DNA of 64,000 bases from an uncultured Gammaproteobacteria bacterium (GTDB taxonomy: Bacteria > Pseudomonadota > Gammaproteobacteria > Arenicellales > JAANXG01), in assembly GCA_947258975.1 (NCBI GenBank), contig CAMYKK010000001.1, positions 1-64,000 on the forward strand, in the 5' to 3' direction. A program made the position numbers and the translations under genes. Of this stretch, positions 12,472-54,607 are shown in pieces. The notes under the pieces were generated by a model. The model ran no database searches and had not been told where the DNA came from. It was given only the letters and a program-made list of their open reading frames with translations. Position 1 is the first letter of the stretch. The number at the start of each line of letters is the position of its first letter.

Positions 12472-12536
12472 CTGTCAGGTCAGGAAAATACCCCCGTTTA
12501 TTGTTTCTGCTACATACGTTTGTTGGAGATTCGAAA

Positions 12537-13517
12537 GTGATCACTCTCGTCACAGGTGGAAGCGGCTTTGTAGGCAGTCATCTCGTTGACGGGTTCTTAC
12601 AGGCAGGGCATGACGTGCGATGTTTGGTGCGTTTACAGTCGCGCCCGGGATGGCTGGAGGACAAGCAGGTCGAGTTGGTGGAAGGTGATTGCACGCGGCC
12701 TGATACTCTGATCTCTGCGGTGCAGGGGGTGGATATCGTTGTACACGCTGCCGGCGTAACGTGGACCGCGAAGCGTTCCAAATACTTCCATGTCAACGCG
12801 GTCGGGACGCATAATCTCCTGCTGGCGTGTGCCGAGCATGCGCCCGCGCTTAGACGTTTCCTGTTTATTTCCAGCCAGGCAGCGGCGGGTCCAGCGCACA
12901 ATGGGCGGGCGTTGACCGAGCGCGACGCGCCACGGCCGATCTCGCCTTACGGCGCGAGCAAATTGCTCGCCGAGAGCCATGTCTCCGCCTTTGCGGGGCG
13001 ATTTCCTTGCATTATCCTGCGGCCGAGTGCGGTTTATGGGCCCCGTGACCGGAATTTTTTACCCTATGTTCGCATGGTTAAGCACGGTTTCCTGGTAGAA
13101 TTGGGGACCGGGCAGCGTGTGGCGAGTCTCTGCCACGTTCAGGATGTGGTAGCTTGTGCGTTGAACGCGGCCGATAGCCAGGTTCCTTCGGGGTCGGTAT
13201 ATTTCGTCGCTGACGCAGAACCATATGCTTGGCGGGACGTGGAAAAGGGCGTTTGCGCAGCATTGGAGGTCAATCCGCGGCGGCTGACGGTTCCCGGTTG
13301 GTGTGTGCGGGTGTTCGGTGGGCTGGGTCAATTATATGGACTTATAACAGATCGACCGGTTAGGATTAATACCGCACGGGCGGCGGAGCTGCTGGAGAAA
13401 CGCTGGATCTGTGACGTTACTAAAATGACTAATGAACTCGGGTTCACATCCAGCATGGAATTGACCCGAGGATTACAACAGCTGGTTCGCTGGTACCAAG
13501 AACAATATTGGTTATGA
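12537..13517 (+). CDS. NAD-dependent epimerase/dehydratase (extended SDR; CerR-like candidate by context)
   Basis: VITLVTGGSGFVGSHLVDGFLQAGHDVRCLVR; YGASK active-site motif; ORF track starts at 12501, GTG at 12537 preferred. Confidence 0.85.
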   Translation: MITLVTGGSGFVGSHLVDGFLQAGHDVRCLVRLQSRPGWLEDKQVELVEGDCTRPDTLISAVQGVDIVVHAAGVTWTAKRSKYFHVNAVGTHNLLLACAEHAPALRRFLFISSQAAAGPAHNGRALTERDAPRPISPYGASKLLAESHVSAFAGRFPCIILRPSAVYGPRDRNFLPYVRMVKHGFLVELGTGQRVASLCHVQDVVACALNAADSQVPSGSVYFVADAEPYAWRDVEKGVCAALEVNPRRLTVPGWCVRVFGGLGQLYGLITDRPVRINTARAAELLEKRWICDVTKMTNELGFTSSMELTRGLQQLVRWYQEQYWL

Positions 13518-14743
13518 CAAACCGAATCCTCGCCAAACAACATGCTCTAAGCCGCCTGCGCGCAGGCATCTTCGATAAATGCCAAAAGTTTACCCGCGCC
13601 CAAGAGCTCATCGAGGCCGGTATCTATCCCTACTTCCACACGGTGGAGTCTGCCCAGGAGCCTGAAGTCGTCTGCGACGGGCGGCCGATGATAATGATGA
13701 GTTCCAACAATTATCTCGGACTGACCAGCCATCCTAAGGTGAAGGAAGCGGCGATCGACGCGGTGCGCCGCTATGGCACCGGGTGCGCCGGCTCGCGGTT
13801 TCTGAATGGCACCCTGGCTATTCACGAGGAACTCGAGTCCCGGCTGGCAAAGTTCCTCCGCAAAGACGCCGCGCTCGTATTCCCCACTGGTTTTCAAGCG
13901 AACCTCGGCGCGATCTCGGCCCTGGTAGGCAAGCATGACCTGATCGTGATCGACAAAATGAATCACGCCAGCATCTTTGACGGGTGCCGGTTGTCATTCG
14001 GGCAAATCCGCAAGTTCAAACACAACGACATGGAAGATCTGGAACGAATCCTCCGCGACAATTCAGGAAAAGCCGCGTTGGTGGTTGTGGACGGCGTGTT
14101 CAGCATGGAGGGCGATATCGCTGAATTGCCGGGTATAGTAGAACTGTGTCAGCAATATAACGCCGGATTGATGGTAGACGATGCGCACGGCATCGGCGTT
14201 CTTGGAGACCATGGCCGCGGCACTGCGGAACATTTCGGTCTTGAAGCAGACGTGGATCTCATCATGGGTACGTATAGCAAATCCCTTGCGACCATCGGAG
14301 GATGTCTGGCCGCGGATGCGGATGTGATTGACTACCTCAAGCATCACGCCCGCTCTCTGATCTTTTCGGCTAGTCTGCCGCCGGCGCCGGTGGCCGCGGC
14401 CTTGGCGTCATTACAAATCATCGAAGACGAACCAGAGCGCCGCGATCGGCTGTGGCGCAATGCGTCATACTTGCGCGAGGGGTTCGTGAATCTCGGCTTC
14501 GACATCGGAGTGAGCGAGACGCCGATTGTGCCGGTGGTTGTGGGCGATGAAGAACAGGTGTTGGTGACTTGGCGGCGCTTGTTTGACCATGGAGTTTTCG
14601 CGAGCCCGGTGCTTTACCCGGCGGTGCCGCCGGACATGGCCCTCATTCGCACCAGTTGCATGGCGACGCATACCATCGAACAACTCGACATGGTGCTGGA
14701 TGTGTTCGGGCGCGTCGGCCGTGAGATGGCACTTATCGACTAA
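13514..14743 (+). CDS. Alpha-oxoamine synthase, serine palmitoyltransferase-like
   Basis: SSNNYLGLTSHPKVKEAA, TGFQANLGAISAL, DDAHGIGVLG, GTYSKSLATIGGCLAAD (PLP Lys); ATGA overlap with upstream ORF. Confidence 0.85.
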   Translation: MTNRILAKQHALSRLRAGIFDKCQKFTRAQELIEAGIYPYFHTVESAQEPEVVCDGRPMIMMSSNNYLGLTSHPKVKEAAIDAVRRYGTGCAGSRFLNGTLAIHEELESRLAKFLRKDAALVFPTGFQANLGAISALVGKHDLIVIDKMNHASIFDGCRLSFGQIRKFKHNDMEDLERILRDNSGKAALVVVDGVFSMEGDIAELPGIVELCQQYNAGLMVDDAHGIGVLGDHGRGTAEHFGLEADVDLIMGTYSKSLATIGGCLAADADVIDYLKHHARSLIFSASLPPAPVAAALASLQIIEDEPERRDRLWRNASYLREGFVNLGFDIGVSETPIVPVVVGDEEQVLVTWRRLFDHGVFASPVLYPAVPPDMALIRTSCMATHTIEQLDMVLDVFGRVGREMALID

Positions 14744-14749
14744 CTCCGC

Positions 14750-15841
14750 ATGTGCCGTTGGCTAGGCCTATTATTGGCTGCGTCGGTAGTTGGCCTTGGA
14801 GCCGCTCAGGCTTCCGAGAGTGAGGTCAAAGATCACCGCCCCGTGCTTCTCGGCGCAGAATCATATACCGAGGGCTGGGATCAATATTTCTATTTCGAGG
14901 ACGGCACCTTCCTCGCCGTTCAGTTCTTTATCAGCAATTATGGGCCGACTGATCATCGCGCGATGGTGATCGGTTCGCTGTCGTCTTCCCAAAGTAACGA
15001 GCCCATGGTAATCAAGAACGGCCGCGGCCGTAAAGATTGGAGTTTCGAGGACAGCAAGTTGGATCTCAAGGTCGCAAACCACCGGTTCAGTGGGACCCAT
15101 CCTCATTATCGATTGTATCTGCGCAATAGCCGGGGCGAAGTCGATCTGAACGTGGAAGCAAGCGTTGATCCCTGGCGGCTCGGACACATTCCAGACGCCG
15201 CATCGGAGATCTTTCAGTACGTCTCCTACATCATGCCCATGGCCCGTGCCCAGGGCCGATTCCGGCGCGGCTCCGAGAGTACGGGTAGCGCGGGACCATG
15301 GAAAACGCTGCGCGACGGCCGAGGCTTCGCGATCCGCTATTTGAACAACAGCGCTCTGTCCAAGGTCGCGCGCAGTTGGGTACGAGTCGCGACCATTGAC
15401 ACCCAGGACCCGTCGTCGCCGGTCTTTTACCTCGTGCAGCGGCCGGGACAGAAGCAGTCGAGCTTTCTCGCGATCACAGTTGGTGGAGAAATTCGTCAGC
15501 AATGGACGGGATTCCCGGTCACGCTAGTCATCCCCGAACAGGACGCCCCGAATGAAGCCGAACATGACGCCGAGGATTACCGGCTGCCGCCGGATGCTAT
15601 CCAGTTCCAGATTACGGGTGCCGACGGGACGGTAACGGGTAATATTACGATGACGCGTCTGCTGCAGCGATTCGATTTCGTGCGCGAGCTCAAGCGCATC
15701 GAGCGGTTTTTTGTGCGGTTTTTGAATACACCGGTGCATTATCGGTACCTCGCACAATACGACTTGAGTTATCAGGGCAAGGAGGGTGGACAACGGTTGA
15801 CTGGGACCGCCTTGGCCGAGATCATGACTCTGAAGCGTTGA
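14750..15841 (+). CDS. Exported lipocalin-like (Svf1/CrtC/AttH-like) protein, tentative
   Basis: N-terminal signal peptide MCRWLGLLLAASVVGLGAAQASE; GWDQYFYFEDGTFLAVQFFISNYG...; fold assignment is inference. Confidence 0.55.
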   Translation: MCRWLGLLLAASVVGLGAAQASESEVKDHRPVLLGAESYTEGWDQYFYFEDGTFLAVQFFISNYGPTDHRAMVIGSLSSSQSNEPMVIKNGRGRKDWSFEDSKLDLKVANHRFSGTHPHYRLYLRNSRGEVDLNVEASVDPWRLGHIPDAASEIFQYVSYIMPMARAQGRFRRGSESTGSAGPWKTLRDGRGFAIRYLNNSALSKVARSWVRVATIDTQDPSSPVFYLVQRPGQKQSSFLAITVGGEIRQQWTGFPVTLVIPEQDAPNEAEHDAEDYRLPPDAIQFQITGADGTVTGNITMTRLLQRFDFVRELKRIERFFVRFLNTPVHYRYLAQYDLSYQGKEGGQRLTGTALAEIMTLKR

Positions 15842-16147: not shown

Positions 16148-18613
16148 ATGGTAGAAAATCAAGACAACTTGACACCAAGGCCGATTCGCTGGGTCGTCGC
16201 CATCCTCGCGCGTTTGTACTGGTTGGTTCTAATCGCAGCGGTTATATCCGCATATTACTGCTTCTTGCTCGCCAAAGAGTTGAAGCTCGACGCGAATATC
16301 ATTTCTTTGATGCCCGAAGGGGTGCAAAGTGTTGAAAACCTGCGGACAGTAATCGAGAAAACCGGCGGATACAGCAATGCAATGATTCTGGTCGAATCGC
16401 CGGATCGTGATGCGGCAATACGGTTCCTGGCAGATCTAAAATCCGAAGTCCGGCAATTCGACTGGGTTAGCAGTGCGGAATACAGCGAAGACACCGCCAT
16501 CTTCCAAAGGAACAAGTTGCTGTTTGTGGAAACCAACGACTTGTTGGACATCGATCGCAGGCTGGCGGCACGACTCGACTACGAAAAGAAGCACCTGAAA
16601 TTCAAGGTGCAGGATACGACGGTTGAAATCAGTATTCGAGGAACGAAACGGCGGCCTCCTTCCCTCGATTTTGACGATATTGAGCAGAAATATGAAGGTA
16701 AGAAAGAGAAGACGGAAAAACAAAAACTGTTTCAAAATGACGCGGGAGATCTGATCATCCTGGTGGTCATGCCCAAGGGGGGCACGACCAATGTGGCCTA
16801 CTCAAAACGCATAATTTCGCAACTCCAAGAGAAGATCAGCCGCGTCGATCCCGCTAAATATCATCCCCAAATGAGCGTTAAACTCGGCGGCAGGGTAGCC
16901 AATCTTGTCGCCAAGTTCGACGCGATCATGCATGACATCAAAAGCAGCGCGATCTGGTCGCTTTCAGCGATATTATTGGTGGTGGCGCTGTTTTACCGTC
17001 GCTTGTCGGCGTTGTTTTACATCGGCTTGCCTTTGATCGTTGGTTTTTTATGGACGTTTGCGGTTACCCAAGTCGTTCTTGGTGGGTTGAATCTGATCAC
17101 GATTTTCCTGGTGTTGATTCTATTTGGCCTGGGGATCGACTTCGGAATCCACAATCTTTCACGCTACAACGAAGTGCGGCAACACGGAGGCACATTAGAG
17201 CAGGGCTTGAGCACGGTGTATCGAAGAACAGGACAGGCCTCTTTGTTGGCTGCGGTTACTACGATGGCCGGATTCTTTTCGCTTATGGCCACTGATTTCC
17301 GGGCGTTTTACGAATTCGGATTTATTGCCGGCAGCGGCGTTGCGTTTACCTTGTTGTCGATGTATCTGGTATTTCCAGCGTTGATCGTTCTCGCCGAACG
17401 GATCAAAGTCTACCGTGCGCCGCCGGAAAGGACGGAGACGGTCCAACAGGGTGGGGTGTTTCCATTTACAAATACGATATTGGTGATTGGAGCCATGTTG
17501 TGCGTCTTCAGTCTCACGGCATTGAATCAACTCGAGTTTGAAGACGACTTCGGCAGGCTAAAAACAAAAGTCTCAAGTTTGGATGAAGTTAATCGTAAGA
17601 TCACAGAAGTATTTCCACTGCGCTCGGACAAGGCGGTGGTGTTCGTAGAAAGCCTGGAGGACGTAAAAGCGTTGGTAGACACTGTTGAATCGATCAAGGA
17701 TCTGGGTGACGCCGCCGGAGACCCGACCATCGATAAAGTTAAGTCCATCTACAACTTGGTACCGGAATCCGAGGATCAAAAGCAGCGCATTGAAATCATA
17801 GACCGCATACAAGTCCAGCTCGCTGAAGCCACGAAGTTGCTGGAGGATTTCGGGGAAGATGATGAGCGAAATTCCGAGCTGCAGAGGTTTATGACATACA
17901 TGGGTGTGTCCGAGATGAAACCCACTGATTTACCGTTACCGTTGCAGCGCATTTACACCGGAGTACCCGGTTCCGGCGGCTACCTGGTATACATCTATAA
18001 CCGAAAGGGCACTTCGAAGTTGGAGGAAGCACAGGCGTTTGTTGACGATATTCGCGAAATAACCATCAACGATAAGACCTACTATCCCGCCACCGAGGCG
18101 ATGGTGTTCGTCGATATGCTGAATTTGATGAAAAAAGATGCCGCGCTTGCCGTTTCCGCTGTGTTGGCGACTGTCGTGATTATTCTTTTGTTCGCATTGC
18201 GCAGCGTGACGCAAACGATCGTAGTCTTGATACCGGTCGCCGTGGGTATGCTATGGATGCTCGGTCTGATGGCAGCGTTGGAGGTCCGGCTAAACGTATT
18301 CAATATGGTGGTTCTGCCGACGGTACTCGGAATTGGGCTGGACAATGGAATCCACATCTATCACCGATACCGTGAGCGCGGGGCCGGCGGGCTGAGGCAT
18401 GTGGTGAAAACCACCGGCGCGGCGGCGTTCCTGACGACATTGACTACCATGCTGGGATTTGCCGGGACCTTGACCGCGTCGAACCTCGGATTGCAGTCGC
18501 TTGGCCTGGTGGCGTGTATTGGACTTGGTGCTTGTATGATCAGTTCATTGACGGTGTTCCCCGCGATTTTACAATGGCACGCCAACTTGGGGGCGCGGCG
18601 GTTGGTGACGTAG
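16148..18613 (+). CDS. MMPL/RND superfamily transporter (HpnN-like)
   Basis: 821 aa, duplicated TM blocks with GLGIDFGIHNLSRYNE and GIGLDNGIHIYHRYRE motifs. Confidence 0.88.
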   Translation: MVENQDNLTPRPIRWVVAILARLYWLVLIAAVISAYYCFLLAKELKLDANIISLMPEGVQSVENLRTVIEKTGGYSNAMILVESPDRDAAIRFLADLKSEVRQFDWVSSAEYSEDTAIFQRNKLLFVETNDLLDIDRRLAARLDYEKKHLKFKVQDTTVEISIRGTKRRPPSLDFDDIEQKYEGKKEKTEKQKLFQNDAGDLIILVVMPKGGTTNVAYSKRIISQLQEKISRVDPAKYHPQMSVKLGGRVANLVAKFDAIMHDIKSSAIWSLSAILLVVALFYRRLSALFYIGLPLIVGFLWTFAVTQVVLGGLNLITIFLVLILFGLGIDFGIHNLSRYNEVRQHGGTLEQGLSTVYRRTGQASLLAAVTTMAGFFSLMATDFRAFYEFGFIAGSGVAFTLLSMYLVFPALIVLAERIKVYRAPPERTETVQQGGVFPFTNTILVIGAMLCVFSLTALNQLEFEDDFGRLKTKVSSLDEVNRKITEVFPLRSDKAVVFVESLEDVKALVDTVESIKDLGDAAGDPTIDKVKSIYNLVPESEDQKQRIEIIDRIQVQLAEATKLLEDFGEDDERNSELQRFMTYMGVSEMKPTDLPLPLQRIYTGVPGSGGYLVYIYNRKGTSKLEEAQAFVDDIREITINDKTYYPATEAMVFVDMLNLMKKDAALAVSAVLATVVIILLFALRSVTQTIVVLIPVAVGMLWMLGLMAALEVRLNVFNMVVLPTVLGIGLDNGIHIYHRYRERGAGGLRHVVKTTGAAAFLTTLTTMLGFAGTLTASNLGLQSLGLVACIGLGACMISSLTVFPAILQWHANLGARRLVT

Positions 18614-19072: not shown

Positions 19073-20380
19073 TTGACTGATCCCGTCAAACCGCTCCATC
19101 GGTGCGGGCCCGATTATGAGGCGGTGATTACTGTCCGCGTGCGGGAACATGGCCCCCTCGAGCAGTGGCCGGAATTCAAGCCGCTCCTGGGCCGCTCGCC
19201 ATTCCAACGCCACCTTCACCACTTGGTCACACAGGGCATCACGCGTGTCGCTATTGTGCCAATGAACACGGGCGGGGTGAATGCGAATAACAATGACCTG
19301 GCTGGTGTGATCGATGCGCAGCGGCAAGGGCTGAGCGCCTCCCCGCCGGTGCTTGAGGTGATCGACGCGTCGCAAATGGATCGGTGGGTGGGGCAGGTCC
19401 TGATGATGCCTGCGTCGGCAGTCTATGACGCGCGTCTTTATCAGGTGGTTCACGCGTCGCCGACGATGGTGAGATTGGTCGACGGCGCCGATGATACCGG
19501 TTTGGCGCGCCTGGACCGGGATGCGCTGCTGACCGCGGTCAGCAACGGATCTTCCGGCGTCGCGAGCACCGCCAATCAGCGGATTTCCGCGCTCGATGTG
19601 GCCACGTTACCCCGGTATCTCCCGGCGCTGCGGCGGCATCTGCGTCCGTGGTGGTGTCATGCGGCCAGCGACGCGGATCGCGATCGTGCCGCTCACCGGC
19701 TCATCGATGCGGCACAGAAAGGGGTGCTCGACTTTCCGGCGCGTTATCTTCATCCGTGGCCCGAGAACCTGTTGGCCAGGGCGGCGGCCGCGACCGACAT
19801 CACGCCTAATCAGATCACCGTGTATTCCGCGGTGATTGCATTTTTCGGCACCTACCTGTTCGCAATCCAGTATTTTCTGTTGGGATTAATCATCGCGGTG
19901 ATTGCGGGCATCTTGGACGGTGTGGACGGTAAGTTGGCGCGGATAAAGCTCTTGAGCAGTCCGTTTGGTGATCGCTTGGATCATAGCTTGGACGTGAGTT
20001 TCGAGTTTAGTTGGTATATCGGCTTGGGTTGGGGGTTGAGTCAGGCCACCGGCGATGGCGATGCATTGTGGGCGGGATGCGCCATCTTGATTGTGATGAT
20101 CATCGCCCGTGCCCTATGCGGCGTATATCGCCTCATCACCGGACACCAGATTCACGACCATACGGCCTTTGATAGAGGCGTCAGGCTGGTGGCCGGGCGG
20201 CGCAACATCTATGTGCTGGTGTGGCTCGCCGGTGCCTTGACGGGAAATCTTCTGGCTGCCTTCTATATGACGTTGTCGTGGGCGCTTGCCACGGTGGCTA
20301 TTTACGCGGCACGGATTTTGTTTGCGCTCATCATGAAAAGGCGACGCCACAACCGCGCCTCCGCTTTGACTCCGGAGTGA
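19073..20380 (+). CDS. CDP-alcohol phosphatidyltransferase with N-terminal nucleotidyltransferase-like extension
   Basis: Full CDP-OH-P motif DGKLARIKLLSSPFGDRLDHSLD, multiple TMs. Confidence 0.85.
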   Translation: MTDPVKPLHRCGPDYEAVITVRVREHGPLEQWPEFKPLLGRSPFQRHLHHLVTQGITRVAIVPMNTGGVNANNNDLAGVIDAQRQGLSASPPVLEVIDASQMDRWVGQVLMMPASAVYDARLYQVVHASPTMVRLVDGADDTGLARLDRDALLTAVSNGSSGVASTANQRISALDVATLPRYLPALRRHLRPWWCHAASDADRDRAAHRLIDAAQKGVLDFPARYLHPWPENLLARAAAATDITPNQITVYSAVIAFFGTYLFAIQYFLLGLIIAVIAGILDGVDGKLARIKLLSSPFGDRLDHSLDVSFEFSWYIGLGWGLSQATGDGDALWAGCAILIVMIIARALCGVYRLITGHQIHDHTAFDRGVRLVAGRRNIYVLVWLAGALTGNLLAAFYMTLSWALATVAIYAARILFALIMKRRRHNRASALTPE

Positions 20381-20383
20381 GTG

Positions 20384-21931
20384 ATGGCGGCTGGCTCCCC
20401 ACAATCACAGCGAATTGATCCGGTAAGCGGTACCGAGCTGGCTTCCAAGGCAAGCATTATGGTGGCGAGCAAGATTGTCGGTGCGTTAAGCAAGATCGCG
20501 GCGATTATTATTCTCGTGCGTGTCCTCGATAAGCAAGATTTCGGGCTGCTGAGCTTCGCATTAGTGACCTACCTCACGGTCACGAAGATGTCTGAATTGG
20601 GCCTATCCGACAGCATTTTTTATTTTTTCGGTAAGTATTCCACTGCGCGCAGATGTTATGCCCTGATGGTCGCGCGCACGCTGTTCTTGTTGGCTATTGC
20701 GGGGGGGCTGTTGCTGTTGATCATCGGTTTGGTAACTGATGCCAACGGCTACTCGGTGCTGGGATTATTCGTACCACTGATGATCCTTGCGCTGATCGAA
20801 TTGCCGACCTTGCCGATTCAAAACGCTTTGATTGCTATCGATCGCACCAAGCACGCGGCGCTGGCGAACATTTTGTTCAGCTTCGTGTTTTTTGTTGCCG
20901 TGACTATTCCCGCAGTTGGCGGTCAATCCATTCAGGTGATCACCTATTGCCTGGTGGGCTACGGATTGTTCCGGCTCGTGGTCAGCACATTTCTCTTTAC
21001 TCGTCACTTTCCGTCAGATAGTGAGGCCTTGCCGCAGGGCTTGATGCGTGAGGTGTTCGCTTATTCGATTCCATTGAGCATCGCGCAGATCATGTGGAAG
21101 CTCAATGAATTCGTTGACAAGTATGTAGTGATGTTTTTTCTTCCCGTTGTGGCGTTCGCCGAATATACGGTGGGGTCCTGGGAGATCCCGATGGTGCCCA
21201 CGATCGCATTCACGGTCGCCTCGGTGATGATGCCCCAGTTGGTTTCTCTGCATATGAGCCAGGACTCCGAATCGCTGTTGGAATTATGGAACGAGTCGAT
21301 CAAGAAGGTCTCATTGATCGTGTTGCCACTGATGGTGCTGCTGGTGACCATCGCTCAAGACCTTATTGTAGTCCTGTTCTCAAAGGACTATTTGAATGCG
21401 GCGTGGGTATTCATGGTCTACTCGCTGGTGTTGTTTCACCGTGTCGGTGCTTACGCCGCGGTGTTGAAGGCAGTCAATCAGACTCAAGTGGTGACGCGTT
21501 GGTCCGTGTATACCGTGTTGCTCAACTTGTGTCTGAGTGTACCCTTAGTGCTGTGGTTGGGCATGATTGGTGCGGCCATCGCTACGTTGGTGGCGGTTGG
21601 CGTCACTTGGGTCTATGTATTGCGCAAAATCGGCCATGTTCTGCACGTGTCCATCAAGCGGGTTTTTCCATTCGTTTTTTACGCGCGGGTACTCGCGGTC
21701 GCATTTGCGGCCGCGATACCGGTGGTTGTGTTGACGCTGTACGTGGAATCGTCCCACGGGCTCGGATTGATATGGAAAACCGTCACCTACTGCGTCAGTT
21801 TCAGCACGCTCTCTGCCGTCACGGGAATTTTGCAGCGCTCCGATGCGCTGTTTTTGGCGCGACTCATCGGCTGGCGTCCTCGGCGTGCGCCCCCGGTAGC
21901 CACGGTTGGCAATGCACCATTCCGGCGCTAA
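20384..21931 (+). CDS. Wzx/MATE-like flippase (polysaccharide biosynthesis family)
   Basis: about 12 TM segments; ASKASIMVASKIVGALSKIAAIIILVRVLDKQDFGLLSFALVTYLT; starts next to stop of previous gene. Confidence 0.82.
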   Translation: MAAGSPQSQRIDPVSGTELASKASIMVASKIVGALSKIAAIIILVRVLDKQDFGLLSFALVTYLTVTKMSELGLSDSIFYFFGKYSTARRCYALMVARTLFLLAIAGGLLLLIIGLVTDANGYSVLGLFVPLMILALIELPTLPIQNALIAIDRTKHAALANILFSFVFFVAVTIPAVGGQSIQVITYCLVGYGLFRLVVSTFLFTRHFPSDSEALPQGLMREVFAYSIPLSIAQIMWKLNEFVDKYVVMFFLPVVAFAEYTVGSWEIPMVPTIAFTVASVMMPQLVSLHMSQDSESLLELWNESIKKVSLIVLPLMVLLVTIAQDLIVVLFSKDYLNAAWVFMVYSLVLFHRVGAYAAVLKAVNQTQVVTRWSVYTVLLNLCLSVPLVLWLGMIGAAIATLVAVGVTWVYVLRKIGHVLHVSIKRVFPFVFYARVLAVAFAAAIPVVVLTLYVESSHGLGLIWKTVTYCVSFSTLSAVTGILQRSDALFLARLIGWRPRRAPPVATVGNAPFRR

Positions 21932-21965
21932 ACTGCGCGCGCACTTTCAATATCAAGTTGTAGCC

Positions 21966-22964
21966 ATGACCACCGCCGCCGCCCAATGGGCAAACATCAA
22001 GCACCAGCTCAGCTACAAGGTGAGCAAGGTGGTGATGCCCAACTCGCCCTCGGCCTCGTCGATCCCCTTTGTGGAATACCTCAAGTGGTTCCGGTACACA
22101 CGTTTCACGCCGGATCACCCCTATTCAATCGACATCCAAACCCGCAGCGGTTGTAACGCCCGTTGTACCTTTTGTGGAGTGGGACGTGAACAAAATCGGA
22201 TAACCGGCCGCATGAGCGACGGCTTGTACCAACAGATCATAGACGAGGCGCTGACGTTTCCAAACCTGGTGCAAATCAATCCTTATCTGCTCAATGATCC
22301 GCTGGTGGATAAATCCATAGAAGAACGCATCGAGTATATTGTGCGCAAACGTAATGCCCGCCGGCGTCCCGCGGTGCGCATTATCACCAACGCGGCGCTG
22401 CTGGCTGAGGAACGGGCCTATCGATTGCTGCATTCGGGGCTCGATGAAATCAATGTCAGCTTCAATTCAATCATTCCCGCGGTCTATGAGAAGGCGATGC
22501 CACCGTTGAAGTACGATCAGGTCATGGAAAATATTCTCGGACTGGTGCGGCTGAAAAAGCAAATGCGCCTTCGTTTTCCCAAGATCAATATCTGGACCGT
22601 GCTCACGAAAGAGGTGGAGTCGAATCTCCGCCATGAAAAGGCATATTGGAAAAGCGTGGGCGTCACGTTGAAAGCCAGGAAACTCGACAACCGCGCCAGT
22701 CCCGATATCGAAGCGGCCGAGCTTGGCAACCGTCCTATGGATTTGGTGCAGATCTGCCCGATCCCGTTCTGGCGCGCGTGGATCATGTGGAACGGCGACA
22801 TGATCATGTGTTGCGTGGACCAGGAGCGATCGAATATTTTGGGTAACTGCCGGGACCGGCCGATCAAAGAGATCTGGAACGATTCCAATTATCAGGACCT
22901 GCGCCGGCGCTGGCGTACGAAGGAACTGGATGGTCTGTTGTGTAATGAGTGTAAGGGTTCTTGA
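21966..22964 (+). CDS. Radical SAM protein with SPASM-like C-terminus
   Basis: SGCNARCTFCGVG (CX3CX2C); C-terminal CPIPFWRAWIMWNGDMIMCCVDQERSNILGNC...CNECKGS; start at 21966 preferred over 21906. Confidence 0.88.
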   Translation: MTTAAAQWANIKHQLSYKVSKVVMPNSPSASSIPFVEYLKWFRYTRFTPDHPYSIDIQTRSGCNARCTFCGVGREQNRITGRMSDGLYQQIIDEALTFPNLVQINPYLLNDPLVDKSIEERIEYIVRKRNARRRPAVRIITNAALLAEERAYRLLHSGLDEINVSFNSIIPAVYEKAMPPLKYDQVMENILGLVRLKKQMRLRFPKINIWTVLTKEVESNLRHEKAYWKSVGVTLKARKLDNRASPDIEAAELGNRPMDLVQICPIPFWRAWIMWNGDMIMCCVDQERSNILGNCRDRPIKEIWNDSNYQDLRRRWRTKELDGLLCNECKGS

Positions 22965-23133: not shown

Positions 23134-23889
23134 ATGGACGATTTGGTACCCGACTGGCAACGAAATCCGCTGATGCGGGCCGGTCATCGTGTCATCAAAA
23201 AGCTAGAACGCTCGATCGTCAAGGCGGATCCGCATGCGAACCAGCCGTTCCATGACACTGACGAGTATCCATGGATAGGACGGATCGAGAGTAACTGGCG
23301 CATTATCCTTGACGAATTGCAGCTCATCATGACGTATCAAGACCGGTTACCCAACTTCCAGGACATATCCCAAGACCAGGTGAGCATTACCCAAGATCAG
23401 CGATGGAAGACATTCTTTTTATATGGTTACGGCTACAAGGCGGAAGACAACTGCCGTAGCTGTCCGCAGACCACCAAGTTGGTGGAGGCGGTGCCAAACT
23501 TGCTAACTGCTTTTTTTTCGATTCTCGCACCGGGAAAACATATCCCCCCGCACCGCGGGCCCTATAAGGGCATTCTCCGTTACCACTTGGGTTTGATTGT
23601 CCCAGAACCGGTTGAGCAGTGCCGGATACGGGTCGGTGACGAAGTTCGCTCTTGGGAACGAGGTAAAAGCTTATTGTTCGACGATACCTTCGAACATGAG
23701 GTCTGGAACGATACCCCGGGCACCCGGGTGGTGCTGTTCGTGGATGTCATCCGTGAGCTACCGTTTCCGGCTTCCCTGGTGAATAAACTGGTGATCAATC
23801 TGATTCGATGGTCGCCTTTTGTGCAAAATGCACGCAAAAACGTAGCTGACTATACGATAGGCTTGGATCGCCCGCCGCAGCGCCACTAG
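23134..23889 (+). CDS. Aspartyl/asparaginyl beta-hydroxylase family (LpxO/OlsC-like) protein
   Basis: PPHRGPYKGILRYHLGLIVP and FDDTFEHEVWNDTPGTRVVLFVDV. Confidence 0.85.
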   Translation: MDDLVPDWQRNPLMRAGHRVIKKLERSIVKADPHANQPFHDTDEYPWIGRIESNWRIILDELQLIMTYQDRLPNFQDISQDQVSITQDQRWKTFFLYGYGYKAEDNCRSCPQTTKLVEAVPNLLTAFFSILAPGKHIPPHRGPYKGILRYHLGLIVPEPVEQCRIRVGDEVRSWERGKSLLFDDTFEHEVWNDTPGTRVVLFVDVIRELPFPASLVNKLVINLIRWSPFVQNARKNVADYTIGLDRPPQRH

Positions 23890-23932: not shown

Positions 23933-25237
23933 TTGATGAAAGCGATCATAATTGCCATGACCCCCCAGGGTTCCACTGCTCCGGAACCCATCGCATTTAC
24001 CAAGGTGTGTGGGGTCACGTTGCTGGAACGGCACCTGCGCACACTGAAGAGCTGCGGTGTGGATAGTGTCGATGTGGTGATAAGAGACGACGACGTTGTG
24101 CCCAAGGATTATCGCAAAGATTTGACTTCGCGAGGCGCGTCGTTTCGTTTGCGCACACTCGAAGCACTGCGCAGTCATTCGATTATGGCTGACACGGATT
24201 CCGCATTGATCATATTCGGTGACTATGTCATCGAAAAGGCACTCATAGAGACAGTATTGCAGGCCGAGGGTGATTGCATGCTGGTGGACTCACATCCGCT
24301 GGTTAACGCCGCACAAGGCCCGCAAATGAGACACGGCCCGGTGTTTGCTGGTGCGGGGGTGGTGAGCGGTGCAGACATTGCTGCCCTCGTCCCGCGCGAC
24401 GGGTCATTCACCTCTAGATTGGATATCCTGGGGGATGTCAGGCAAATTGATGTGAATACGCTGCCGAGCTTCGACTCTGAGCTGCGCCGCGACCGGCGGC
24501 GCCTGTGGATGAAGGTGGCGAACGCGGGCGATTTGCGCACCGCCGAGGTGCGTTTGATCCAGGCGGTTCAAAAAGGTTCTTTAGACTGGCCCGCCCAGGT
24601 GCTGCACGCACCCATCGAGAATTGGGCCATTACCCGGCTCTGCCGTACGTCGATCACACCGAACCAGCTTACTTTAATCACCAATATCGCCGCCTGGGGC
24701 GTGACGGCGCTAATCCTGGCGGGGCACTTCATGAGTGCGATGTGGTTGGCCGCCGTCGTTGGGGTCATGGACGGTGTTGATGGGAAACTCGCCCGATTGA
24801 AGCTGATGACGTCAAAAATCGGGAAGCTCGAGCACGTGTTCGACATGATTTTTGAATATTCGTGGTGGTTTGCGCTGGGCTGGGCCCTGTCCCAGGGCGA
24901 CCTAAGCGCACCGATTTTTGCGGCCGGCATAGCGTTGATAGTGTGTAACTTTTTGGATACCGCGGCCACCGGCATATTCTGGTTTTTCAAGGGTCGGGAG
25001 CACGGGCGACGATTGGACAACTACACACCCTTTGACCTGATGGTGCGAAAAATATCCGGGCGGCGCAATATTTACGTGTGGATCATCTTGCTGACCGCAA
25101 TGCTGAGCACCGTCGAGGCCGGATTGTGGGTGGCGCTAATATGGGGTGTGGCGACGGTCCTGGTGAGAGGCGGACGGACCTTGATGCATTTACTCGACCG
25201 CCGCAGGCCGGTGGAATTCGAATTCGTAGTCCGTTAA
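23933..25237 (+). CDS. Nucleotidyltransferase-like/CDP-alcohol phosphatidyltransferase fusion (paralog of 19073-20380)
   Basis: MMKAIIIAMTPQGS...FTKVCGVTLLERHLRTLKSCGVDSVDVV; DGKLARLKLMTSKIGKLEHVFD (variant CDP-OH-P motif). Confidence 0.8.
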   Translation: MMKAIIIAMTPQGSTAPEPIAFTKVCGVTLLERHLRTLKSCGVDSVDVVIRDDDVVPKDYRKDLTSRGASFRLRTLEALRSHSIMADTDSALIIFGDYVIEKALIETVLQAEGDCMLVDSHPLVNAAQGPQMRHGPVFAGAGVVSGADIAALVPRDGSFTSRLDILGDVRQIDVNTLPSFDSELRRDRRRLWMKVANAGDLRTAEVRLIQAVQKGSLDWPAQVLHAPIENWAITRLCRTSITPNQLTLITNIAAWGVTALILAGHFMSAMWLAAVVGVMDGVDGKLARLKLMTSKIGKLEHVFDMIFEYSWWFALGWALSQGDLSAPIFAAGIALIVCNFLDTAATGIFWFFKGREHGRRLDNYTPFDLMVRKISGRRNIYVWIILLTAMLSTVEAGLWVALIWGVATVLVRGGRTLMHLLDRRRPVEFEFVVR

Positions 25238-26343
25238 TCTTCTTCGGGGTCGGGCAGACGTTGTGGTCGGCGCCATTCGTCGAAGGCGCTCATCTGATGC
25301 ACGCAGCTCAAGGTGCAAGCCGGGCTGCAGTCTTTGCGGGTGTGAAATTCTCGGCGGATGTCTTCTCGCGCGTAATCGGCAATCGGTTTGTTCGGATAAC
25401 CGCGCCTTTGTGAACACCAATGCACGTTGCCGTCCTCACAGATGTATAAGTATCGGGCGCCGGCGCGGCATTTCCAATCGTTGGGCTCACCGAAGACCAG
25501 ATTCTTTTGAAACAGATGGTAATTCAACTTGTGGGTCAGTGAGCCGGAGCGTCCTCCAATCTGCTGATAGACCGCAAACTGTTTGCGGCTAAGCGGCTGC
25601 AAGGTGCCGGCTTCATCATGCAGCACGCCGACGGAGTGATAAAAACCATAGTGTTTGGCGCGTTCTGCCACTAACAAGGCGTCTTGCGTTCGTTCATCGC
25701 TGATCCCGAGCACTGAATTGATATTGACCTTGAAACGCGCGTATTGGGCCAGCAGGGCTAATTTGCTCTCTACGGATTTGAGGCTTTTCATGGACACCTC
25801 GTCAGGCTCCAGATTATCGATGCTGATTTGCATCTCCTGTAAGCCGCAATCGTTCAGCGTCTCGATTCGCTCCCGGTTGAGGCGGAAACCATTGGTGATC
25901 ATGGTGGCAATCATGCCATGTTCCCGGATTGCGCTAAAAACATGTTCCAGCTGCGGATGCATCAGGGGTTCGCCGCCGGTGCAGGTCACCGCGGCGGTGG
26001 ACAATCGGGCCAGTGCCGCGACCCGCTCGCGCAGCCGGTCCAGCGGCACCGGCGGGGAGAAATCGTCGTATTCGTTGCAGTAGCCGCAACTCAGATTGCA
26101 GCGTCGCGTGACCACCAACTGGGCGAGCAGGGGGTTATACCGCGAGGACACCGCCTTCCACAGGAATTTGGATACCGACCATCGGTACGCGGCCTTGCGG
26201 TGCATCCCGCTCGGTTCCCGCGATAGTATTGTAACTGCTTGTTTTGTTGACATTAAATTTCGCACTCGTGATACGGCCCAGGCGCCCGCGATGCGGCGCG
26301 TCCCCTTCAGCGACGGATTATTGATGACCGGGCTGGCCGCCAT
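25234..26343 (-). CDS. Radical SAM protein with extra C-terminal cysteines
   Basis: VTRRCNLSCGYCNEYDD, TGGEPLMHP, C-terminal CRAGARYLYICEDGNVHWC...CSPACTLSCVH; ORF track start 26382. Confidence 0.88.
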   Translation of the reverse strand: MAASPVINNPSLKGTRRIAGAWAVSRVRNLMSTKQAVTILSREPSGMHRKAAYRWSVSKFLWKAVSSRYNPLLAQLVVTRRCNLSCGYCNEYDDFSPPVPLDRLRERVAALARLSTAAVTCTGGEPLMHPQLEHVFSAIREHGMIATMITNGFRLNRERIETLNDCGLQEMQISIDNLEPDEVSMKSLKSVESKLALLAQYARFKVNINSVLGISDERTQDALLVAERAKHYGFYHSVGVLHDEAGTLQPLSRKQFAVYQQIGGRSGSLTHKLNYHLFQKNLVFGEPNDWKCRAGARYLYICEDGNVHWCSQRRGYPNKPIADYAREDIRREFHTRKDCSPACTLSCVHQMSAFDEWRRPQRLPDPEED

Positions 26344-26547
26344 CAAGCACTGACTGCGAATAAAAGCAGCTCCGGCGCACAAAAAAACTTGGGAGTCAGG
26401 GTTTTTTCAGTTATAAGTAACTCTTGACACCAACGTCACGTCTACCCTGTCTGCCACCTAAAGATCGCATCAGATCGCTAGTCTTTAGCTTCCAACGTTT
26501 TTTGGAGTGCTCGTCACACCGGGCGAGGCCGCGCTTGTGCGGCATAC

Positions 26548-27243
26548 TTGACCATTGAAATGCCACCGAACCCTAATAAGCTCGCTGTAATATATGCCGT
26601 CCTAGCGCTGAGCGCGCCGGCCTTGGCTTACGCGCAGAATAATTGTGCGGTGATCTCCCAAGGCCCCAAGCCCGTCGATCAGTCGCAGAAAAACGATAAG
26701 AATCAAATTCCGATCGATGCGCCGGTAAAGATCCAGGCGGACACGATCGACTTTCCACGTCGTAATGTCGTCCACCTGCGAGGATACACCCAATTGATCC
26801 GCGGTGGTCATCGTGTCTATGCGGATGAATTGATCTTCGACAAAGAAAAGCAAGAAATCGAAGCCCGTGGTTTGGTGACCCTCGAGACGCCACGGGGCGA
26901 TGTGGTCAAAACTTCTGTGCTTCACTATGACGTCAACCGCAATCTCATGGAGTCCGGACCCGCGGAAATTGTTCTGGCGAGCCGCGAGGCGAAGGTCGTG
27001 GGCGCAACCGGCGGTTCGGTTACCGCGCACGGCACTGCCGACCAGGTGGTGTTTGAGGGTGCCGACGTGATGCACTTGAAGGAAGTGCAGTTGACGACTT
27101 GCTTGGACGGAAAAGACGACCTCGTATTTGCTGCCGATGACCTGACGGTCGACCTCGAAACAGGCTTGCGGGTGGCCAAACGTGCGAAGGTGCGGTTGCT
27201 CACGCCCCACCGGCATCCGCAGATCACCGATTTGATCAATTAG
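26548..27243 (+). CDS. OstA/LptD N-terminal-like periplasmic protein lacking a beta-barrel
   Basis: VKIQADTIDFPRRNVVHLRGYTQLIRGGHRVYADELIFDKEKQEIEARG; LTTCLDGKDDLVFAADDLTVDLETGLRVAKRAKVRL then stop. Confidence 0.7.
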   Translation: MTIEMPPNPNKLAVIYAVLALSAPALAYAQNNCAVISQGPKPVDQSQKNDKNQIPIDAPVKIQADTIDFPRRNVVHLRGYTQLIRGGHRVYADELIFDKEKQEIEARGLVTLETPRGDVVKTSVLHYDVNRNLMESGPAEIVLASREAKVVGATGGSVTAHGTADQVVFEGADVMHLKEVQLTTCLDGKDDLVFAADDLTVDLETGLRVAKRAKVRLLTPHRHPQITDLIN

Positions 27244-27303: not shown

Positions 27304-28446
27304 TCAACGACGTTTTTTGGGCAGCAGCACAAACAAACGGCCGGGTTGTTTCATCAGGCCCGCCATGCGTTCGGCGGTGACGCCGCGGCCCCAAAACAGA
27401 TCAGCACGCACCGGGCCTTTGATGGCACCACCGGTGTCTTGGGCCAGCACCAGGCGCCGGTAGGGCTCTGAGTCTGTGCCCGGCCGGGTGGTATCGAGCC
27501 ACACCGGAACCCCGAGAGGAATTACTCTGCGATCCACTGCCAGACTGCGCTGGGCGGTGAGCGGCACGTTCAAAGAACCAACCGGACCCTCCGGTCGCGT
27601 CGGTCGCAGGGCGAAAAACACGTAGCTGGGATTACGATGAAATAATTCCTCGGCGCGGTGCGAGTGATTGCGCAACCAATCGCGTATGGAAAACATATCG
27701 ACATCCGCGCTCGCGAGCTCTCCCATCGCGATCAACTCGCGGCCGATGGAGCGGTAAGGATGTCCGTTCTGATCCGCGTATCCCACGGCGACGACACGGC
27801 CGTCGGGAAGCGCCACCCGCCCCGATCCTTGGATGTGCAGGAAAAACAGTGCCGCCGGATCATCCACCCACAGCAATTCTTGTCCCGCCAGCAGGTCCTG
27901 CTCAGTGTCGATCTGCTGACGGTTGTAGTACGGAACGACCCTATTCCCAATAAGCTTGCCACGGACGCGCTTGTCCTTGAGTTCCGGAAACAACTCCGCC
28001 AGGTCTACGATCAGCAGATCCTTGGGACGAGCGTAGATCGGATAGCGAAATTGTTTCGAGGGCTTGAAGCGGCCTCGTAGCAGGGGTTCGTAGTACCCGG
28101 TGATCAGTCCCTGGCTGCGCCAACCGGCGCCGCGCACCTTGTGAGGAGTAAACCAGTTTTCAAAAAATTCGCGTACCTGGGCGTCGTCCGGATCGGACAG
28201 ATCCTTTGCCGCGCTGCATATTTGTTCCCAGGATCGCTCTTGGCGCGCCAATTTCTCGCAGCTGCGGAGCAGTGCCGGCCAGCTTTCAGCGTGGCGGTCT
28301 TGATCCCATGCAGGCAAGTTGCGCCACGCCACCGTGCCGGTGATGCCGGGAGGCGGCGCCAACCATGCGCAACCGTTCAACACCATGGTTGCAATCATGA
28401 GGCTGCATAGGGTGGTCCTGGGTGGCCGTAAGGGCACGATGGGCAT
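27304..28446 (-). CDS. mltA: Membrane-bound lytic murein transglycosylase A
   Basis: GLITGYYEPLLRG, LAQDTGGAIKGPVRADLFWGRG (3D domain), lipobox-like LNGC; ORF track start 28530. Confidence 0.9.
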   Translation of the reverse strand: MPIVPLRPPRTTLCSLMIATMVLNGCAWLAPPPGITGTVAWRNLPAWDQDRHAESWPALLRSCEKLARQERSWEQICSAAKDLSDPDDAQVREFFENWFTPHKVRGAGWRSQGLITGYYEPLLRGRFKPSKQFRYPIYARPKDLLIVDLAELFPELKDKRVRGKLIGNRVVPYYNRQQIDTEQDLLAGQELLWVDDPAALFFLHIQGSGRVALPDGRVVAVGYADQNGHPYRSIGRELIAMGELASADVDMFSIRDWLRNHSHRAEELFHRNPSYVFFALRPTRPEGPVGSLNVPLTAQRSLAVDRRVIPLGVPVWLDTTRPGTDSEPYRRLVLAQDTGGAIKGPVRADLFWGRGVTAERMAGLMKQPGRLFVLLPKKRR

Positions 28447-28517
28447 GTTCGGCACGTCGTTGTTTGCGAAACGCCGAATTGTATACGAAGATTGGCCCCA
28501 CGAGCAGGTAAGGAGAG

Positions 28518-28730
28518 ATGATGGAGACACGAGTTGCAGGCACCGACACTTACGTTGCCACTGAAGATCTGATGATGGCAGTCAATGCCGCCGTCAATTT
28601 AACCCGGCCGCTGCCGGTCAAAGGCGAGCCGGTTATTAGCGGCTTATCCTTATGCGGTATGGCTGAATCCCGCCGCCGCATCCAACTGGCCCTTCACCCA
28701 ATCGATACAGATGATTCGAGCGTTGCTTAA
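28518..28730 (+). pseudogene. N-terminal fragment of MoxR-family AAA ATPase
   Basis: GTDTYVATEDLMMAVNAAVNLTRPLPVKGEP, resembling the MoxR sequence just before Walker A, then unrelated sequence and stop. Confidence 0.6.
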
Positions 28731-45357: not shown

Positions 45358-47907
45358 ATGACTGGCACTACTTTCTCGCTCGAGGTACGTCCTACTATTC
45401 CCAAGCCGCTATCTCGGTTGACCGATCTCGCCAGCAACTTGCTTTACAGCTGGGACCGCGGAATTCGCCACCTTTTTTCCACGCTGGATCCGCAGCTTTG
45501 GGAAGCTACCGGTCATAACCCGCGCTTGTTCTTGCGCAGGGTAGATCAGAATCGACTCAATCAAGCCGCCACAGACCCTTTGTACCTGCGGCATTACGTG
45601 AGTTGCGTGTCGTCTTTTGATATCTATCTTGAACACCGGCATTCCAAAACGGTGACTAAGAACCTGGACAAGGATAATGATCTTGTCGCCTATTTCTGCG
45701 CCGAATACGGTGTGCACGAGAGTCTGCCAATTTACTCCGGGGGCCTGGGTATCCTCGCCGGGGATCACTGCAAGGAAGCCAGCGATCTTGGATTGCCGTT
45801 TGTCGGAGTGGGTTTACTTTACCGACACGGGTACTTTCAACAACAGATCGACGGCAACGGCCGGCAACATGCACAATATGCAGACTTGAATGTTGACGAG
45901 TTGCCGATATTCCCGGTGACTAACAAATCGGGTCTCGACCTGACGCTTACGTTGCGCCTCGAAGATCGTGACGTTGCCTTCAAGGTCTGGGAAGCCAAAG
46001 TCGGCATTATATCGATCTACCTGTTAGATACCGATTTAGAGCAAAACAGTGAGCACGATCAGTTTATAACCCATCAACTTTATGGGGGCGGTACGGATAC
46101 GCGCATCCAACAAGAAATCTTGCTGGGCATAGGCGGGGTGAAGGCGTTGCGTGCAATGGGCCTGCAACCCACGGCTTGGCATATCAACGAGGGCCATGCC
46201 GCGCTCCTTGTTCTGGAGCGATGCCGCGAGTTGGTGTCACAAAATGTTCCGTTCGACGCCGCGTTTGAGATGGTTGCGGCGTCCACTGTGTTCACCACCC
46301 ACACCCCGGTCCCGGCGGGCCACGATATATTTCCTCGGGACTTGATCGACCGCTATTTAGGTGATTTCTTGGATGAGCTCAACGTGGATGCCGATGTATT
46401 GTTGGAGTTGGGGGACAGCCCGGGACACGAGGGCAGTTTCAATTTGACCGCGTTGGCGTTGCGTGGCTCACGCTTCCGGAACGGCGTCAGCCGTCTTCAT
46501 GGAGAGGTGTCTTCCAAATTGAGCAGTTTTGTGTGGCCACAAATCGAGCCCGACGAGAATCCGATCGGTCACGTCACGAACGGCGTGCATGTGCTGTCGT
46601 TTATCCACCACGAATGGGTGCGCATCTTTGATCAACACCTGTCTGGGGAGTGGCGGGACCGGTTGGTGGATCGGGATTTCTGGACGGCAATCAAGAACAT
46701 TCCCGACCGTGCTTTCTGGGCCACCCACCAGACCATCAAGGCGTTGTTGATGGAGGAGGCAAAACAATGCATCACACAGCAGGGGCGTAGGAACGGGCTT
46801 AGCCAATCACAGATCAGGCGACTGACTCGCTGCCTCAACCCCGAAACGCTGGTCATTGGTTTTGCCCGCCGTTTCGCAACGTACAAAAGAGCGACGCTGC
46901 TGGCCAAGGACATGGACAGATTGACTCGCTTGATGCAGGACAGCCAGCATCCGGTGGTATTCATATATGCCGGTAAAGCGCATCCTCAGGACGGACCGGG
47001 TCAGGAATACCTCCACGCAATTTACCAGCTATCGCGCCGTCCGGAATTCGAAGGAAGAATCGTGTTGCTCGAGGCCTATGACATCGAGTTGGCGCGTTTT
47101 TTGGTTACCGGTGTGGACGTCTGGTTGAATACGCCGGAATACCCAATGGAAGCCAGCGGTACTTCCGGACAAAAGGCCGCCATCAATGGTGTTCCGCATT
47201 TCAGCGTGTTGGATGGCTGGTGGGAAGAGGGATACGAGGGTGACAACGGCTGGGCGATCAGCCCCTATCTCGCTGCCGCGGATCACAATGAGCGCGATTA
47301 CATCGAGGCGTCCGGCGCATTCGATCTTCTGGAAGGGGAGATTCTACCACTCTATTACAAGCGCAATGGTCAAGGTTATTCCTCGGATTGGGTGCAGGTC
47401 GCGAAACAAGCGATGATATCGGCGCTTTCCCGCTTTAGTGCGCAGCGGATGTTGACTGACTATATAACGCAGTATTATGCGCCGGCGGCAAAGCTGGGAC
47501 GAAAGTTCAGAGCCGACGATGCAGCGTGGGCCAAAGCGCTGGTGGCTTGGAAGAAGCAGATACATAAGTCGTGGCACGGCGTGAAGATTCGACGAGCACA
47601 AATCCCGGCGGAAGGTATACACGTGGGTGACGAGGCGAAGCTGGTTGTGGAGGTCATGCTCAATGAGCTGACACCCGCTGATCTGCGTGTCGAATGCCTG
47701 ATAAGCGATAAGTTGGAGAAGGATCGTTTGCTGGCGCCACGGCAATATCCACTGTCGGCAACCGGCATGTCAACGGATGGTTGGCAGATTTATGAAGGTG
47801 AGATCGGTCTCGCCGATTGCGGCCGCTACTCCTACAAGCTGCGGGCTTATCCACTGCATCATAGCCTTGCTCACCGCTTAGAGATGGGGCATATGCTCTG
47901 GTTGTAA
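45358..47907 (+). CDS. glgP: Alpha-glucan (glycogen) phosphorylase
   Basis: YFCAEYGVHESLPIYSGGLGILAGDHCKEASDLGLP, WHINEGHAALL, GTSGQKAAINGVPHFSVLDGWW. Confidence 0.93.
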   Translation: MTGTTFSLEVRPTIPKPLSRLTDLASNLLYSWDRGIRHLFSTLDPQLWEATGHNPRLFLRRVDQNRLNQAATDPLYLRHYVSCVSSFDIYLEHRHSKTVTKNLDKDNDLVAYFCAEYGVHESLPIYSGGLGILAGDHCKEASDLGLPFVGVGLLYRHGYFQQQIDGNGRQHAQYADLNVDELPIFPVTNKSGLDLTLTLRLEDRDVAFKVWEAKVGIISIYLLDTDLEQNSEHDQFITHQLYGGGTDTRIQQEILLGIGGVKALRAMGLQPTAWHINEGHAALLVLERCRELVSQNVPFDAAFEMVAASTVFTTHTPVPAGHDIFPRDLIDRYLGDFLDELNVDADVLLELGDSPGHEGSFNLTALALRGSRFRNGVSRLHGEVSSKLSSFVWPQIEPDENPIGHVTNGVHVLSFIHHEWVRIFDQHLSGEWRDRLVDRDFWTAIKNIPDRAFWATHQTIKALLMEEAKQCITQQGRRNGLSQSQIRRLTRCLNPETLVIGFARRFATYKRATLLAKDMDRLTRLMQDSQHPVVFIYAGKAHPQDGPGQEYLHAIYQLSRRPEFEGRIVLLEAYDIELARFLVTGVDVWLNTPEYPMEASGTSGQKAAINGVPHFSVLDGWWEEGYEGDNGWAISPYLAAADHNERDYIEASGAFDLLEGEILPLYYKRNGQGYSSDWVQVAKQAMISALSRFSAQRMLTDYITQYYAPAAKLGRKFRADDAAWAKALVAWKKQIHKSWHGVKIRRAQIPAEGIHVGDEAKLVVEVMLNELTPADLRVECLISDKLEKDRLLAPRQYPLSATGMSTDGWQIYEGEIGLADCGRYSYKLRAYPLHHSLAHRLEMGHMLWL

Positions 47908-47913
47908 CGGCGG

Positions 47914-51104: not shown

Positions 51105-52395
51105 AGTGCAGGGTTTGGCCCAGCATATCCGGGGTCACCAGCACCACACCTTCGGGGGAGATATAAAAACGCTCGGCATCCGACTCCTCATCCCAGCCGA
51201 TACTCGTGTTGTCGTCAATGCGGCACCCTTTATCTAAAATGGCACGTCTGATCTTACAGTTCTGGCCGATGTTCACGTCGGGCAGGACCACCGAGTCGAT
51301 AATCTGCGAGGCGTTGCGCACGACAACCTGGGAAAACAACAAGGAATGGCGGATCAATGCGCCCTGTATGATGCAACCGCCCGACACCATCGAGTTGATG
51401 GCAATGCCCTGGCGGTCCTCATCGTCAAATATGAACTTGGCCGGAGGCAATTGTTCCTGGTGGGTCCAAATCGGCCAATTCTTGTCGTAAAGGTTCAGTT
51501 CCGGCACCGGGTCGATGAGTTCCAGGTTTGCATTCCAGTATGCGTCCACGGTGCCGACATCACGCCAGTAGGATTGCGTGCGGCTCTGTACGTCGCGGAA
51601 CGGGTAGGCGTATACACGATAGTCGCCGATCACGCTGGGGATGATGTCAGCGCCGAAATCGTGCCGGGATGTGGTCGTATCCGCGTCTTTGATGATCTGC
51701 TCATACAGAAAATCTGCATTGAACACGTAAATGCCCATTGACGCCAGGGCCAGCGAGTCGTTTCCGGGAAGCGGTTTGGGGTGTTCGGGTTTTTCATTGA
51801 ACTCGAGGATGCGGTGGTTTGCGTCCACCGACATCACCCCCATCGAGTTGGCCTCATGGACCGGCATTTCGATGCATCCCACGGTCAGATCCGCCTGTTC
51901 CTCTACATGAAACGCCAACATGTGGCCATAATCCATTTTATAGATATGATCGCCGGCCAGGATCAGCATATAGTTCTTGTCGTAGGTGCGGATGATGTCG
52001 AGATTCTGATAGACAGCATCGGCGGTGCCGGTGTACCAGGAATCTTCGCTCAGGCGTTGCGATGCGGGCCACAACTCGACCGCCTCCCCGAGCTGTCCTC
52101 CTAGAAAACCCCATCCTTTTTGTATGTGTTTAATGAGCGAGTGGGCCTTATACTGGGTCAAGACGCCGATCTGACGAATTCCCGAGTTGACGCAGTTGGA
52201 CAAAGTAAAGTCTATGATTCGAAACTTTCCCGCGAACGGAACCGCAGGTTTGGCCCGCCATTGGGTCAAGTTATGCAATCTCGACCCACGGCCGCCGGCT
52301 AACACCAGGCCGAGCGTGTCTTTAGTGAGAAGGCTGACGAAGCGTTCCGGAGTGGTTTGGTTGGACTTCCCGTTTTTATGTATTTTTTTAACCAT
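51094..52395 (-). CDS. glgC: Glucose-1-phosphate adenylyltransferase
   Basis: [45 protein letters not shown]. Confidence 0.95.
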
Positions 52396-52407
52396 TTCTC
52401 TATCTCA

Positions 52408-54606: not shown

Positions 54607-54607
54607 C

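Follow-up and report, generated by a model that had tools for sequence, protein, structure and literature searches.

A stand-alone paralog of the LptD N-terminal domain next to a sphingolipid-type lipid cluster in a gammaproteobacterial clade

What is the role of a gene whose product resembles the N-terminal domain of the lipopolysaccharide (LPS) transport protein LptD but ends before the outer-membrane barrel? Such a gene lies in the 64,000-nucleotide stretch of DNA analysed here, referred to as the window, from an uncultured gammaproteobacterium. An earlier note, made from the window alone, read it as a free-standing LptD N-domain that stops where the barrel would begin and that might form a periplasmic bridge for a novel lipid.

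Identity of the short LptD-like protein

26560-27243, + strand: stand-alone LptD N-domain protein, 227 aa counted from the ATG
26548-26559, + strand: upstream TTG extension, probably untranslated; the ATG at 26560 is preferred

In the ORF listing of the window, 26548-27243 (+) is a genuine open reading frame, as the earlier note had it, but its TTG is probably not the start. In a related genome (G004) a stop codon lies immediately before the position equivalent to 26560, ahead of that genome's own ATG, and the ATG at 26560 is therefore taken as the start rather than the TTG at 26548. The protein begins with a hydrophobic, signal-peptide-like stretch (MPPNPNKLAVIYAVLALSAPALAYA) to about residue 25, followed by Cys29 and a low-confidence linker to about residue 54, and it is predicted to be exported to the periplasm. 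In a template-free structure prediction (mean pLDDT 76, about 90 across most strands), residues of about 57-213 form beta-jellyroll strands, with Cys181 among them, and a short helix closes the C-terminus. Promoter and terminator scans of the regions flanking the gene gave no matches.

Sequence and predicted structure both point to LptD. Residues 16-205 match positions 6-192 of the 783 in the NCBIfam LptD model PRK03761 (E 3.4e-8), and the LptA model TIGR03002 stays far below its cut-off (E 0.07, 12.9 bits versus 71.7). The Pfam LptD_N model, which is shared with LptA, is sub-threshold (14.8 versus 20.4 bits). The mature protein reaches a Smith-Waterman score of 253 against the LptD N-domain of its own genome (shuffles 33 +/- 5, z about 41), compared with 62 (z about 6) against the LptA of that genome. 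In Foldseek, LptD chains of LptDE complexes take the first eight places among the PDB matches of the predicted model (E about 1e-8), and LptA, LptH and LptC come next. A PDB sequence search with a profile gave weak LptD and LptH matches only, and one with the single protein was uninformative. The alignment to LptD runs into the pre-barrel linker ('RFKNVPIFYFPQVTFPIN' versus 'RLLTPHRHPQITDLIN*') and ends before the barrel. The C-terminal barrel family PF04453 is absent from the protein and its orthologs, and a search of all frames of the window with full-length LptD as query found no barrel-like sequence. The first reading of the protein as an LptD N-domain that ends at the barrel is thus borne out, also by the structure prediction that it had called for.

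The window's genome (5.49 Mb, 214 contigs, 96% complete) encodes one intact full-length LptD (contig C55, frame of 823 aa) with barrel, CC pair and all four cysteines, one kdsC-lptC-lptA-lptB operon (contig C7) and a single LptF/LptG pair. No orphan LptD-like barrel was found in it, PF04453 and PF19838 each matching the full-length LptD only, and no second LptFGC set as in Caulobacter was found. The missing barrel is the one feature expected of a truncated LptD, be it a pseudogene, an assembly artefact or a frameshift that separates the barrel. This explanation was rejected, and its probability is practically nil, given orthologs in 15 genomes that form one clade and nearly all share the same ending, strong purifying selection, the intact LptD elsewhere in the genome and the lack of barrel sequence downstream. 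The orthologs are equally short and nearly all end at the same place; neither outcome that would have undone the earlier reading, full-length LptDs throughout or a frameshifted barrel ORF downstream, was encountered.

The short protein occurs in all 13 genomes of the family and in two genomes of genus g25 of family f10, always accompanied by a full-length LptD in the same genome; in the 12 other family genomes and the two g25 genomes its frame spans 191-346 aa. In a midpoint-rooted tree of 47 rows, 16 stand-alone domains lie on one side of a branch (support 100/99), apart from 31 LptD N-domains that include those from the same genomes. The tree shows the stand-alone domains as a paralog of single origin, distinct from LptD and LptA, and dN/dS values of about 0.04-0.13 in the jellyroll of congeneric pairs indicate strong purifying selection. 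The proteins of g25 and of the family share about 35-40% identity. A scan of contigs from 85k species found the stand-alone domain in this clade only, plus one extra paralog in G011. A sample of 369 genomes of the class at E<=1e-20, a threshold that very divergent stand-alone copies could escape, yielded only full-length LptD outside the window's genome. The extra paralog (L047, 2-574, +) is diverged, with about 41% identity, and lies at a contig end. In G009 the stand-alone copy (L046, 11278-11973, -) looks as though it were decaying, its first cysteine lost and its C-terminus aberrant; its neighbourhood appears phosphate-uptake-like by eye. All carrier organisms are known only as metagenome-assembled genomes.

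Numbered from the ATG, Cys29 and Cys181 align with the two conserved cysteines in the N-domains of 31 LptDs and are equivalent to C31 and C173 of E. coli LptD; in one of the 31, which a contig end interrupts, the first cysteine is missing. Cys29 and Cys181 are the sole cysteines outside signal peptides or upstream frame in typical stand-alone members, the exceptions being the second copy of G011, cut by the contig end, and the G009 copy without the first cysteine. In E. coli LptD, C31-C173 and C724-C725 are formed first and are then rearranged to C31-C724 and C173-C725 (PMC8423444). Given this intermediate, an intramolecular Cys29-Cys181 disulfide is the natural expectation. Since barrel cysteines are missing, the stand-alone protein would be expected to remain in the C31-C173-like state and may thus retain a bond that is only transient in LptD. 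The earlier statement that these cysteines could only pair with each other or with a partner is correct and is sharpened here to an expected intramolecular pairing. The same cysteines could instead serve a helper in LptD biogenesis, in which the free N-domain swaps disulfides with LptD or with the barrel of another outer-membrane protein, and it is exactly these disulfides that are shuffled during maturation of E. coli LptD. However, the genome holds no orphan barrel, its LptD already has four cysteines and the link to lipid genes would be left unexplained, which makes this role very unlikely.

Taken together, the protein has the N-terminal LptD_N/OstA beta-jellyroll of LptD, as seen with PRK03761 and Foldseek despite the sub-threshold Pfam score, but it has no outer-membrane barrel and only the two N-domain cysteines of the four that form the two interdomain disulfides. 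It shares with LptA the build of a secreted single jellyroll without a barrel, seen in the signal-peptide-like N-terminus and the model, but it does not reach the TIGR03002 cut-off, and the jellyroll protein of the lptCAB operon is a separate LptA. Hence, it is neither LptD nor LptA, and it is best regarded as a stand-alone paralog of the LptD N-domain, new and separate from both. Lacking the barrel, it would not be expected to form a complex with LptE or to insert LPS into the outer membrane.

Neighbourhood and distribution of the gene

The LptD-domain gene lies at the end of a sphingolipid-type lipid cluster, which extends upstream of it; the last two entries below are its direct neighbours on either side:

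12501-13517, +: NAD-dependent epimerase/3-beta-HSD-type reductase in a CerR-like position; closest equivalog HpnA, below cut-off
13508-14743, +: serine-palmitoyltransferase-like (SPT-like) alpha-oxoamine synthase; best NCBIfam match SPT
14750-15841, +: secreted two-lipocalin protein, AttH fold, 363 aa; no Pfam assignment
16148-18613, +: MMPL/RND lipid transporter; below cut-off for HpnN (281 bits) and for BstA (182 bits)
19073-20380, +: CDP-alcohol phosphatidyltransferase-type protein with a long N-terminal part; C-terminal part DIPP synthase-like
20381-21931, +: polysaccharide-type flippase (MOP superfamily)
21906-22964, +: Radical SAM/SPASM protein (rSAM1)
23134-23889, +: Asp/Asn beta-hydroxylase-type lipid hydroxylase; OlsC-like 265 bits, LpxO-like 124 bits, below cut-off
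23933-25237, +: second bifunctional nucleotidyltransferase/CDP-alcohol phosphatidyltransferase
25234-26382, -: radical-SAM protein rSAM2, adjoining the LptD-domain gene
27304-28530, -: MltA-like murein transglycosylase (by eye), a conserved convergent neighbour

The SPT-like protein matches the NCBIfam SPT model NF047600 with E 3e-166 and 553 bits, below the cut-off of 640. No ceramide synthase (bCerS) or dedicated acyl carrier was seen among the cluster genes scanned with Pfam and NCBIfam. The cluster lipid is probably ceramide-based, and sphingolipid-type would be a more fitting description of it than wholly novel. The top PDB match of the model of the 363-aa protein is 2ich (AttH of Nitrosomonas europaea), followed by other double lipocalins, and one ortholog has a marginal Svf1_C match (E 0.088). 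In yeast, the double lipocalin Svf1 carries ceramide (PMC10583516), and the secreted protein is a candidate periplasmic ceramide carrier. The proteins encoded at 19073-20380 and 23933-25237 are paralogous, being about 38% identical in their shared part, and their C-terminal parts resemble bifunctional DIPP synthases; one possibility is that they produce a phospho-polyol head group of the cluster lipid. A second SPT-like gene, 69% identical, is present in the window's own genome (G000, contig C30, L132, 10197-11381, +), with the other genes of the window's cluster not nearby. Elsewhere in the window, at 45358-56044, a glycogen metabolism cluster is recognized by eye in the ORF list (phosphorylase, 4-alpha-glucanotransferase, GH57, GlgC, GlgB and GlgA).

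The gene for rSAM2, a protein with about 70% identity even across families, adjoins the LptD-domain gene in 12 of the 12 loci whose contig reaches that far, and together rSAM2 and mltA flank the LptD-domain gene in every family locus with sufficient contig except that of G009. As a strict partner of the LptD-domain gene, rSAM2 was rejected: family f161 has it without the LptD-domain gene. There, it is found near carbohydrate deacetylase-like frames. In the more distant relative G054, of genus g25, the core of epimerase, SPT, lipocalin and MMPL genes is located about 15 kb from the LptD-domain gene.

Among 109 genomes of the order, 15 encode the LptD-domain protein. The SPT-like gene (E<=1e-150) is present in 14 of these 15 and in 0 of the 94 others, and rSAM2 in 13 of 15 versus 0 of 94. 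The only LptD-domain carrier without the SPT-like gene is G009, a 77% complete genome in which rSAM2 was also not found. SPT-positive genomes form two clades, the family and genus g25 within f10, and the sister genera of g25, g14 and g26, have neither the SPT-like gene nor the LptD-domain protein. Fisher's p for the co-occurrence with SPT, calculated without correction for phylogeny, is 9e-17 and overstates the association because only two clades are involved. By neighbourhood and by phyletic pattern, the LptD-domain protein is tied to the sphingolipid-type cluster.

Putative role in the periplasm

To our knowledge, all characterised members of the fold (LptA, LptC and the LptD N-domain) handle lipid. 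The reading that we favour, though tentatively, is that the LptD-domain protein works in the periplasm like LptA, as a soluble carrier or bridge for the cluster lipid, together with the HpnN/BstA-like RND exporter and the secreted two-lipocalin protein. The RND protein would pull the finished lipid out of the inner membrane; on the way through the periplasm to the outer membrane, the lipid's acyl chains would be shielded by the LptD-type jellyroll together with the two-lipocalin protein. The jellyroll would act as a lipid-binding slide or bridge unit, and delivery could be either direct or with the jellyroll docked end-to-end on the single canonical Lpt bridge. Having a jellyroll but no barrel, the protein is unable to place lipid in the outer leaflet on its own. 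The cargo, the docking partner and the direction of transport are those that we infer. Counted against a lipid carrier, the gene is transcribed separately from the main cluster and also adjoins mltA. The first suggestion of a periplasmic bridge for a novel lipid is therefore plausible as to the bridge, which the phyletic pattern and the neighbourhood support, and needs amending as to the lipid. A more elaborate proposal, a dedicated Gram-negative export line that carries sphingolipid to the outer membrane independently of LptB2FGC and in which a recycled LptD N-domain is combined with an RND pump of HpnN/BstA type and a secreted double lipocalin of Svf1/AttH type, seems to us doubtful.

Alternatively, though this seems somewhat unlikely, the protein might serve canonical LPS transport as an accessory: its jellyroll would bind LptA at the C-terminal edge, where LptD also docks, and would extend, cap or regulate the LPS bridge in cells with the extra lipid in their outer membrane. 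In LptD, the domain with this fold and sequence is the one that accepts LptA, and with a single Lpt system in the genome, a docking partner of this kind could only be the canonical LptA or LptD. However, LPS export is found throughout the order, whereas the protein keeps to genomes with the SPT-like cluster (14 of 15, versus 0 of the 94 genomes without the protein). The protein might also have some other envelope role, for example in peptidoglycan or through divergent regulation with rSAM2 or MltA, the link to the lipid cluster then reflecting inheritance of the neighbourhood in two clades. Here, rSAM2 and MltA are the nearest constant neighbours, the association is based on two clades and rSAM2 is also present elsewhere without the LptD-domain gene. 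The lipid handling common to the fold speaks against such a role, as does the retention of the MMPL-lipocalin-SPT core nearby in g25 despite the low identity of its LptD-domain proteins, and we regard it as quite unlikely.

Comparison with known transport systems

The route by which bacterial sphingolipids reach the outer membrane from the inner one has been stated to be unknown (PMC11324152). For the periplasmic step, the LptD-domain protein offers a concrete candidate that is encoded by a single gene and can be tested. The existence of an LptD N-domain as an independent module also bears on the evolution of bridge-type lipid transporters and on new cargo for them. No stand-alone LptD N-domain in a sphingolipid context was found in the open-access full-text literature.

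The closest known relative is the N-domain of E. coli LptD (PDB 4q35, 4n4r, 5iv9), with which the protein shares the beta-jellyroll, the best sequence and structure match, the two equivalent cysteines and an end in the linker between N-domain and barrel. In contrast to LptD, it has neither barrel nor CC pair, is encoded by its own gene in a clade of its own and coexists with full-length LptD. LptA/LptH (YhbN) has the same architecture, a signal peptide and one jellyroll in a soluble, barrel-less protein, but the stand-alone protein is far closer to LptD by sequence, has two conserved cysteines and comes from a gene that lies apart from kdsC-lptC-lptA-lptB, an operon with an LptA of its own.

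The sphingolipid region of Caulobacter encodes the extra proteins LptC2, LptF2 and LptG2 (CC_1168, CC_1156 and CC_1155), which have been proposed to function in lipid transport to the outer membrane (PMC11324152). Both cases thus have additional Lpt-type paralogs encoded with sphingolipid genes. However, the extra genes of Caulobacter correspond to the inner-membrane extractor, whereas in this clade it is the N-domain of the outer-membrane receiver, with no LptFGC duplicate and with an RND transporter nearby. In Methylococcus, the RND protein BstA together with BstB and BstC binds sterols, forming a three-part lipid transport set (PMC10942540). As in the present cluster, an RND/MMPL inner-membrane protein and periplasmic lipid binders are encoded with lipid synthesis genes, lipid binding by the LptD-domain protein being presumed. 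The periplasmic folds are unrelated, however: in place of BstB and BstC, an LptD jellyroll and an AttH-type double lipocalin are present here.
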